From positions 1 through 64,000 of the forward strand of contig JAPJBO010000932.1 in the NCBI GenBank assembly GCA_030068145.1: DNA of 64,000 nucleotides. The letters are read 5' to 3'. The stretch is from Diplonema papillatum. Taxonomy: Eukaryota > Euglenozoa > Diplonemea > Diplonemida > Diplonemidae. The position numbers and the translations under genes are program-made. The number at the start of each line of letters is the position of its first letter. Positions within the stretch are counted from its first letter, which is position 1. This document shows positions 36,604 to 47,095 of the stretch, one piece after another. Below the pieces are notes generated by a model, which was not told the origin of the DNA, ran no database searches, and saw only the letters and a program-made list of their open reading frames with translations.

Positions 36604-39600
36604 ATGGGTGGGGGCACTAGTAAGAACAAAGAAAGCCAGAAGAACCAGCAGGCAGCACCGCCGGCAACCGAAACCCCCAAGCCCTTGTTGGCAGATAACA
36701 CAAAAACCGTCGAAGGAGGCGCCGTCGACCAGCCCCCCGCGGCGCAAGCCGCGCCACGGGCCGCTGAAGGCCCCGCAAAACCGCCGTCTCCCGTAGCCGC
36801 GTACACAGCAGAAACCAACGGCACCGACCCCGAAGGTCAAACAGACGGAACAACTTCTCCACCTGTATGCTTCCCCTCTTTTCTTATCGACCAAGACTGC
36901 GCGAGATGTGCCCGGAAGGCTTCCACTGTTTTCGCATTGGTGAGTGAGTCATGTACTAGTCTGCCTGTTCTGGCGTCTCTACGATTGTACCTAAAACACA
37001 TTGGCGACTCGCACTGCTCACACCGTTGTGACAAAGCCTGAGTTGAGCGAGGCGAAGCCCATGCCACAAATGACCATTAGTGCTGCACCGCTACACTATT
37101 GCCAGCGTGTCTCTTGAGGTTGTGAAGTTACGAAACCCTGCAAACCACAGCCCGGATCGGGGACCCCGCGACCGCCGCCGCCTCCGACCACAGCTCTGGA
37201 AAGACAGCGACTGAAGGAGGAAGAAAAAGAGCGAAAAGCGAAAGAATCGAGCGCAGCCGACCGGGCGCGCGAGCACGAGAAAAAAGCGCGCGAGCAGCAG
37301 AAGCAGGAGCAGGAGCAAGAGCAAGAGCTCGAACGCCACAAGCAGCAGCAGCTGAAGCAGAAGCAGAAGCAGAAGGATATGGCGCGTGAGGCGGCCGAGG
37401 ACGGCGAGCACAACAAAGCGTCGTCCTCGACGAAGGTAGCTGGCGACAAGCAGAAGAAGAAGAAGCTGCTCAACGGCACCAACATCGAGTTCCGATACCC
37501 TTCAGGTCTTGCCTCCCCACATCTCCGCATTCTCGGCAAGTAGTTTTCACAGAGCCTTGTGCATGGCCGGATATTGTCTCTCGTCCTTCTTTGGGAGTCG
37601 CTTGTTGGCCAAAAGGAAGGGAGGGCTACGATGCTGTGCATGTGAAGCATCCAACAAGGTGCTAGATGCCTTAGTACTAGTAGCTACACCACGAGTACTG
37701 CAGCACGCAGCACGAGCTCATCCTCTAGTGCACCAGCTACGTAGCTACGTAGTATCCTCTACCGGCTGTAGGATGGTATGTGGTATCCACCACACCCAGT
37801 CCTCGTAGCATACGTACAGCCACGTAGTATCCTCTACGGGTGTACTGTGGTGTGCATGCACAGCGCATCAGTGCCAACGGGTGCACAGCGTAGTGAGGTC
37901 ATGACACCTGAGTTAGCAACAGGAATTTCAACAGTGTTCTGTCGTACCGTCAAACTACTATTTCCCCCTGAGTCGGATTGGGCTTGCCTGTGCTTTCGCA
38001 TTGGGTGGTCCTGGCCTGGCTGTGGCGAGTTACGAAAAGCCGCCTCACAACGTTGACCGGACCCGACAACCAAATGGGGGCCTTTCAATAGCTCACGAAT
38101 ATACGATCCGCAGCACAGAGGATCCGACCTCTTTTATCGTTTGCGCTGTTTTGTGTTGAGCGCGTGCCCAAAACAGGATCGCGATATGTAGGCGGATTCC
38201 GCGAAGGTAAGCTCCATGGGTATGGTAAGTACACGTACTACCCATCCGGCGATGAGTACGAAGGTGAGTGGTGGAACGACATGAAGCACGGTCACGGCAC
38301 CTACACCTACGAGTCGGGCGACAAGTACGTCGGCGAGTGGCGATACGGCAAGAAACACGGAAAAGGCAACTACACCTTCGCCTCTGGCGATGAGTACGTT
38401 GGTTCCTGGAAAGCCGACCGCATCTACGGTTACGGTGTCTTCGTCATCGTTCGCAACGGCAACCGGTACGAAGGTATGCTCTCATTGCTCTCGATGGACC
38501 CTTCCACTCTCTACCGCCACCGTTTGTCGCCCTAATTTCCCGCAGCGCGCTTCTCGCTCCCGATGGGCGGCTTTCGTGGAGACAAGGGATCGTCAACGTT
38601 TTTTGGTTCAGCCAAGCGGTAGACAATCATGTTCTGAACCTTGTAGAACCTGTTCCCGTGCCATCTGTGGGTCTTGCCAGTCCTGTTCAGCATCGGCCAA
38701 CTGGCACCAGGAGGGGGCAAAAAAAAAGTCACCGAGAGGTCGACCGCTGACCGTCACCGACACACACCCACACACACACACACACACACACACACACACA
38801 CACACACACACACACACACACACACACACACACACACACACACACACACACACACACACACACACACACACACACACACACACACACACATACTAGCAAG
38901 CTTGCTTGAGCGCCGAAGGCGCGTCTAGTGGGATCCACTACGTTCTGTGGATAGGCAATGCATCCCCCACTCGTTACGAGGTTGGACGGGAGGGATCACA
39001 ATCCAACACACGTCGCAGGCTGGGTGTTGGCCCCCCTTTGGTTGGGTTCCCCTCCCTCTCTCTTCTTGTGCCATTTTCGGCCCTTTCTAGCTTGCCTGTT
39101 TCCGTTTCCTTTTGTTGCCCTGCATCCCGCAGTTGCTGCGAGGACGTGCACCCGCTGGAGAACGCCAGCGCGAAGCAACCGGCCAGTGTCGTGGCCAGTG
39201 GAGCTGAGACCTCCAGAGACGTCGACAAGTCCATAGAACGGAGTAAGGATCCCACACACACACACACACACACACACACACACACACACACACACACACA
39301 CACACACACACACACACACACACACACACACACACACACACACACACACACACACACACACACACACACACACACACACACACACACACACACACACACA
39401 CACACACACACACACACACACACACACACACACACACACACACACACACCACACACACACACACACACACACACACACACACACACACACACCACACACA
39501 CACACACACACACACACACACACACACACACACACACAACACACACACACACACACACACACACACACACACACACACACACACACACACACACACACTC

Positions 39601-47095: not shown

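Follow-up and report, generated by a model that had tools for sequence, protein, structure and literature searches.

Organization of the locus

The window, that is the whole stretch of 64,000 nucleotides analysed here, lies on contig C932 of a Diplonema papillatum assembly of 271,365,524 bases in 2910 contigs, which was the assembly searched; the published description of the genome gives 280,293,864 bp and mostly GT-AG introns (PMC10161547). Twelve exons on the + strand, from 36604 to 44318, keep a single phase when spliced and yield 3450 bases encoding 1150 residues with no stop, and with two tentative exons further downstream the product reaches 1225 residues, with the stop at 47095. The predicted protein consists of a low-complexity N-terminus, seven MORN repeats, a coiled coil and a C-terminal kinesin motor. 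These exons, their phases and coordinates, including the end at 47095, had been proposed in a preliminary description of the locus and were recovered unchanged, as were the seven MORN repeats, which can be read off the sequence at residues 209-371 as tandem units of 23 residues. Pfam detects MORN in the 1150-residue product at 5e-32 (108.3 bits against a cut-off of 22.5) and Kinesin at 1.8e-101 over residues 807-1125; Microtub_bd is matched as well. Having 11 or more introns, the gene is intron-rich for D. papillatum, since the reported mean is 1.6 per gene, with a maximum of 20 that also belongs to a kinesin gene (PMC10161547).

Exon 1 (36604-36864, donor GTATGC) opens with a putative MGGGTSK start and is of low complexity. 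Exon 2 (37151-37505) is Pro-rich, then Lys/Glu/Gln-rich, and ends in half a MORN repeat (FRYPSG); its donor, GTCTTG, is the sole exception to the pattern GTVTGY among the 13 donors of the model. MORN repeats 1-4 and the start of repeat 5 are encoded by exon 3 (38177-38473), which carries the Pfam MORN match, and the remainder of repeat 5, repeats 6-7 and a tail by exon 4 (39633-40010). The splice sites of the intervening intron 3 (38474-39632), which contains two long (AC)n arrays at 38760-38890 and 39253-39625, were picked by homology alone as the best of 103 candidates, scoring 145.3 bits, with the next donor at 142.0. Intron 4 (40011-40187, 177 bp, phase 1) has the donor GTGTGC and the acceptor CCACTCCAG, and its junction is the disputed one. 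Beyond it, exon 5 (40188-40495), exon 7 (41320-41517) and exon 8 (41850-42119) encode coiled coil, exon 6 (40805-40993) probably does so too, and exon 9 (42526-42928) comprises the end of the coiled coil, the kinesin-14 neck and the start of the motor up to the P-loop GQTG. The motor continues with its P-loop in exon 10 (43229-43690) and ends in exon 11 (43858-44126), while exon 12 (44259-44318) adds a helix-like stretch past the motor. The P-loop (GQTG) and the switch motifs, which bind the nucleotide, are intact, and DLAGSE is present. When the whole product was searched against its own genome, 10 of the 12 exons appeared among the matches listed (exons 7 and 12 did not), and a second copy of the fusion was absent from the 44 matches listed, for which 40 of 8945 candidates were scored. 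Searches of the window gave no match with Rfam and no tRNA with ARAGORN.

The two ends of the gene are less firmly placed than its body, and a version of the same fusion with other ends, beginning after 36604 (for example in exon 2, hence not myristoylated) and finishing by read-through to 44379 or elsewhere, has a chance only somewhat short of even. Five out-of-frame ATGs (36495, 36501, 36537, 36576 and 36594) stand within the 110 bases upstream of the putative start, and the codon score of exon 1 is near zero in the model frame, although that frame is far above the other two (+2.1 against -40.1 and -28.1). At the opposite end, tentative exons 13 (46729-46871) and 14 (47011-47095, with the stop) are phase-compatible and exon 13, like exon 1, carries a GTATGC donor, but the codon score falls below zero in both (-0.20 per codon for exon 13, -0.62 for exon 14) and neither has a match elsewhere in its own genome. 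Read-through of the exon 12 frame, which adds 20 residues before the stop at 44379, is for these reasons as likely as exons 13-14.

Intron 12 of the extended model contains, in antisense orientation, a retroelement fragment with an open frame at 44534-46609 on the - strand, encoding an RNase H-like domain (Pfam RVT_3, 1.1e-7); (TG)n stretches occur at 44453-44478 and 46459-46571. This fragment and the long CA arrays within introns could be taken as signs of a decayed gene, in which the domains remain and the locus is no longer expressed. Such decay is very improbable: 3450 coding bases run free of stops and frameshifts, the catalytic motifs are intact, and transposable elements are reported from some introns of D. 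papillatum (PMC10161547).

Elsewhere in the window, a ferric-reductase-like membrane protein (25661-27724, Pfam 3e-7) and a RING-H2 protein (53633-54460, Pfam 2e-14) are both encoded on the + strand, which agrees with a one-directional gene cluster, an arrangement described for this species (PMC10161547). A 21-bp unit repeated 26.6 times with a 99% match (8275-8832) encodes HGADDKP repeats within a 1444-aa open frame (6033-10367, + strand); the opposite strand has an overlapping open frame of 1327 aa.

The motor belongs to the KCBP class

A search of PDB sequences with the motor returned KCBP first (3h4s, 1.7e-110, 372 bits; 1sdm, 1.2e-109), followed by KIFC3 (2.1e-73, 250 bits) and then kinesin-1, and 189 of the 349 residues aligned with 3h4s are identical. 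In a maximum-likelihood tree the motor groups with another motor of the same genome, on contig C452 (support 99/85), and these two with two KCBPs (100/99); the KCBP group falls inside kinesin-14 together with KIFC3, two KAR3 and the D. papillatum motors of C303 and C44 (99/98). The tree has 28 rows and a midpoint root, its flagged long branches lie outside the kinesin-14 group, and of 25 own-genome motors selected for it 4 are absent, their motifs having been missed by the script. Both features expected of a kinesin-14 were found, namely a C-terminal motor after a coiled coil and a kinesin-14 neck. The motor is thus, on sequence grounds, of the KCBP class and inside kinesin-14, as the preliminary description had suggested in calling it a C-terminal KCBP-like motor. 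Movement towards the minus end would follow from the neck and from the clade.

The remainder of the protein departs from KCBP. At E<=0.001, Kinesin, Microtub_bd and MORN were the only Pfam domains of the spliced product, which has no MyTH4-FERM tail, and a comparison by eye of the helix-like stretch of exon 12 with the calmodulin-binding helix of KCBP revealed no clear calmodulin site. The kinesin of C452, whose motor also has KCBP as its best PDB match (4.1e-99; KIFC3, 1e-66), is the sister motor in the tree but differs in its tail: a coiled coil of more than 900 residues takes the place of the MORN tail in an open frame of 1306 codons, which has the neck at residue 938, and no MORN was found in the 7 kb upstream of that frame. 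Since introns in D. papillatum may far exceed that length, C452 might still possess a distant MORN exon. Just upstream of the C452 kinesin (43606-46563 of that contig) is a 986-codon open frame that looks transposon-like by eye. The C303 motor, used as a control, has KAR3 as its best PDB match.

One gene or two at the 40010/40188 junction

The spliced-leader core searched for in the genome was what we take to be the diplonemid core, with one ambiguous base. It has 328 + 296 exact copies on the two strands, against 0 for the reversed control, and every copy listed carries TTTATTG, presumably the form of Diplonema. The copies are scattered genome-wide, and among four that were read (L073-L076) a GT follows only L075, so that some of them may be tags of retrocopied mRNAs and not genes for the leader; in L073 the ~48-bp dispersed repeat described below is found directly upstream of the spliced leader. 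Essentially all D. papillatum mRNAs are reported to bear the leader and genes are likely co-transcribed (PMC10161547), and RNA-Seq-informed predictions in this species are said often to merge distinct coding regions (PMC12817076). Since leaders are added to co-transcribed genes and such merging has been published, it matters whether the MORN and motor halves are joined at 40010/40188. Because the organism probably trans-splices, an AG acceptor alone cannot separate cis from trans. The MORN frame, if read through intron 4, stops at 40037-40039, and one may therefore picture two genes in one polycistron: one for a MORN protein that ends at 40039, the other for a kinesin, with the leader added to its mRNA within 40040-40187 or at 40188. 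The 624 leader copies, the co-transcription and the record of merged predictions all make this arrangement conceivable.

The preliminary description held that there is no gene boundary at 40.0-40.2 kb, on the grounds that the exon beginning at 40188 is open and heptad-rich for about 43 codons ahead of its first ATG and that its phase matches the donor at 40011. The observations hold: exon 5 joins GTGTGC without a phase break, and no stop interrupts its frame over the 43 full codons (40190-40318) that precede the first in-frame ATG at 40319. As stand-alone proof, however, both intact phase and open frame were rejected, since 62 of 209 GT-AG pairs fit the phase and 452 of 1958 42-codon intron windows (23%) are also open.

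The heptads, the codon score and the donor carry more weight. The 43 codons hold four heptads in a stretch of 28 residues, whose heptad score was reached by 0 of 3930 intron windows and by 8 of 10000 residue shuffles. Across six frames of the whole window it was reached in 16 of 67,948 windows, of which 13 are in the model frame (two of these beginning just inside intron 8) and three at 1000-1006. This score is to be read as descriptive, because it was devised after the heptads had been seen. In the same pre-ATG stretch the codon score is positive in the model frame only (+6.6 against -36.4 and -23.2).

Of the 11 GTs listed between 39862 and 40045, none but the donor of intron 4, GTGTGC, is a GTVTGY; over the window as a whole, this pattern fits 5.1% of GTs (181 of 3566). 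The pattern is shared by 12 of the 13 introns of the model, or by 10 of 11 if the two tentative exons are left aside. As the model sites were chosen partly by eye, a choice of splice sites by homology alone was added for 15 introns, 12 of them in MORN sequences at five loci and three in the kinesin part of the window gene. GTVTGY was the top donor in 8 of the 15, intron 4 of the MORN gene on C289 being a tie; outside the window gene this was so in 5 of 11, and where the best donor was at least 3 bits ahead of the next, in 5 of 7. At a frequency of 5%, chance would give fewer than one in 15. The seven misses comprise two with a clear margin (GTATCA in C1777 intron 4, GTGACA in C289 intron 2), introns 2 and 3 of C1777, introns 1 and 3 of C289, and intron 11 of the window gene, where GTTTTT leads GTATGC by one bit. 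GTGTGC itself is the clear homology-only donor in another MORN gene, on C1533.

The space between the two halves bears on the two-gene arrangement as well. From the MORN stop to the acceptor at 40188 there are 148 bp, whereas the published medians for D. papillatum are ~800 bp for the 3′UTR and ~70 bp for the 5′UTR (PMC10161547), so that two genes would be left without room. A leader placed at 40188 would have to be followed by translation that passes two out-of-frame ATGs (40254 and 40293) before reaching 40319, and would leave the four heptads untranslated. For a leader within 40040-40187 a single ATG, at 40067, is available; phase-compatible mini-exons do start there, but none of their four donors (GTGTGG, GTGTAC, GTTCTC and GTTAGT) is a GTVTGY and the ATG lies within a copy of a ~48-bp dispersed repeat (40061-40110, + strand). 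This region looks like an insertion, as the repeat is flanked by the 14-bp direct repeat GCTTCTTTTGTTAG (40047-40060 and 40107-40120). Taken together, the donor pattern, the heptads and the codon score support the earlier claim: the junction is best read as a cis-intron, and MORN repeats and motor very probably belong to one gene with no boundary at 40.0-40.2 kb, while the two-gene arrangement appears unlikely.

The degenerate core pattern of the dispersed repeat has 2278 exact matches in the genome, almost equally divided between strands (1133 + 1145), against 0 for the reversed control, and an own-genome search listed at least 44 matches with 40 of 620 candidates scored. Among the places listed, all copies are on the + strand in C1 and C5 and on the - strand in C4 and C6, C8 has + and then -, and C7, C9, C10 and C11 are mixed. 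Along many contigs the strand is uniform, as if the repeat were co-directional with the gene clusters.

MORN and kinesin elsewhere in the genome

Genome-wide lists contain at least 86 MORN matches (150 of 297 candidates scored) and at least 132 kinesin matches (122 of 231). The kinesin set is very large: its Pfam matches were merged by hand into about 115 loci, and copies with identical scores occur on C412, C475 (two) and C2609. By hand comparison of the matches listed, MORN and kinesin occur within 3 kb on one strand only in C932 and C1089; in C2, C20, C221 and C243 the two lie more than 100 kb from each other. When a custom MORN profile was applied to 72 extracted loci (L001-L072), in which most kinesin loci had just 1.5 kb of flank, MORN was likewise found at the kinesin places of C932 and C1089 and otherwise at the MORN loci only. 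In the collections viral_contigs and genome_contigs, which are not meant for eukaryotes, no relative of the motor was confirmed.

The C1089 gene (4470-7230 of locus L071), spliced by hand, encodes an N-terminal motor, in which the usual switch motifs are not recognizable by eye, and C-terminal MORN repeats. Over both motor and MORN it matches PDB chain 9y6s_8a, which bears the name kinesin-MORN (7.9e-120, 404 bits), and 9e5c_4y, which is entered as MORN repeat-containing protein 3 (1e-116, 393.7 bits). Judged by these matches, it is the own-genome orthologue of kinesin-MORN, a protein known in trypanosomes as Tb927.10.14570 and localized to the axoneme (PMC5540225). The same locus has a second copy of the ~48-bp repeat, at 6853-6900, flanked by 12-bp direct repeats.

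Since both genes join MORN repeats to a kinesin domain, the window gene could in principle be the D. papillatum copy of this axonemal protein. That identity is refuted by the reversed order of the domains, by the intact KCBP-type motor and by the orthologue on C1089, and we regard it as practically nil. The MORN part of the window gene matches the two kinesin-MORN chains at only 52 and 48 bits, and in PDB its array is closest to MORN1 proteins (6t6q, 6t69, 6t4r and 6t4d, 7.6e-49 to 2.5e-44).

Proposed function

Taking the body of the gene as described, we consider it quite probable that a single cis-spliced gene encodes a dimeric, C-terminal, minus-end kinesin-14 with a KCBP-class motor and a seven-repeat MORN tail, which would dock the protein on a scaffold. 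In the model, the coiled coil would form a parallel dimer and the kinesin-14 neck would direct stepping to the minus end. The MORN array would dock on, or oligomerize with, an immobile protein scaffold belonging to the cytoskeleton of the cortex or of the flagellar base. So docked, the motor could anchor or slide microtubules, or carry scaffold parts, towards minus ends at the basal bodies.

In protists, the hook complex and the basal complex are built by MORN scaffolds. N-myristoylation follows a pattern of a Met-Gly start with Ser or Thr at position 6, which MGGGTSK fits, and a myristoylated start could, speculatively, add contact with the membrane; such an acyl anchor depends on translation beginning at the putative codon at 36604. 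The membrane-binding N-terminus of the preliminary description, composed of acyl anchor and MORN, is speculative: the start is preceded by the five out-of-frame ATGs noted above, and MORN repeats do not bind membranes reliably, as for TbMORN1 no evidence of membrane or vesicle binding was reported, although individual phospholipids did interact (PMC7725318). MORN repeats are treated in the same source as protein-protein interaction modules that mediate dimerization and oligomerization. A scaffold is preferred here over a membrane as the docking partner on account of both points.

Comparison with known systems

The earlier remark that MORN-kinesin fusions are not common may be right, but one such protein is known, kinesin-MORN, where the order is opposite and the motor degenerate. 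MORN is also named among kinesin-associated domains in a figure legend (PMC1434745), and among the papers listed by a literature search, judged from titles and the openings of abstracts, none describes MORN fused to a motor of KCBP or kinesin-14 type. MORN and kinesin in one protein are already known; MORN with a motor predicted to be of KCBP type is a different combination. MORN scaffolds and KCBP-type motors, the latter best known from plants, are cytoskeletal modules that usually occur separately; their union here suggests that the KCBP motor class predates plants and has been fitted with different tails.

A wider reading, which we offer tentatively and hold to be rather less than an even bet, is that KCBP-class motors are not confined to plants but form an old class, kept in Euglenozoa, whose cargo tail has been exchanged: plants have MyTH4-FERM, and the diplonemid has a MORN array that may be supplemented by an acyl anchor, tying MORN scaffolds of the cortex or flagellar base to minus ends. 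MORN and kinesin would then have been joined at least twice in one lineage, in opposite orders. The fusion would offer a clear test of what MORN arrays do, since the binding partners of the array would become the load or the anchor of the motor.

With plant KCBP (3h4s, 1sdm) the protein shares the motor clade and a C-terminal motor after a coiled coil, but seven MORN repeats stand in the place of the MyTH4-FERM tail. With MORN1 proteins it shares consensus-like repeats; the solved MORN1 chains consist of MORN repeats only, whereas the window gene adds a motor. Axonemal kinesin-MORN, finally, resembles the window gene in uniting MORN repeats with a kinesin domain, but has the motor first, MORN last and a degenerate motor, while in the window gene the order is the reverse and the KCBP-class motor is intact.
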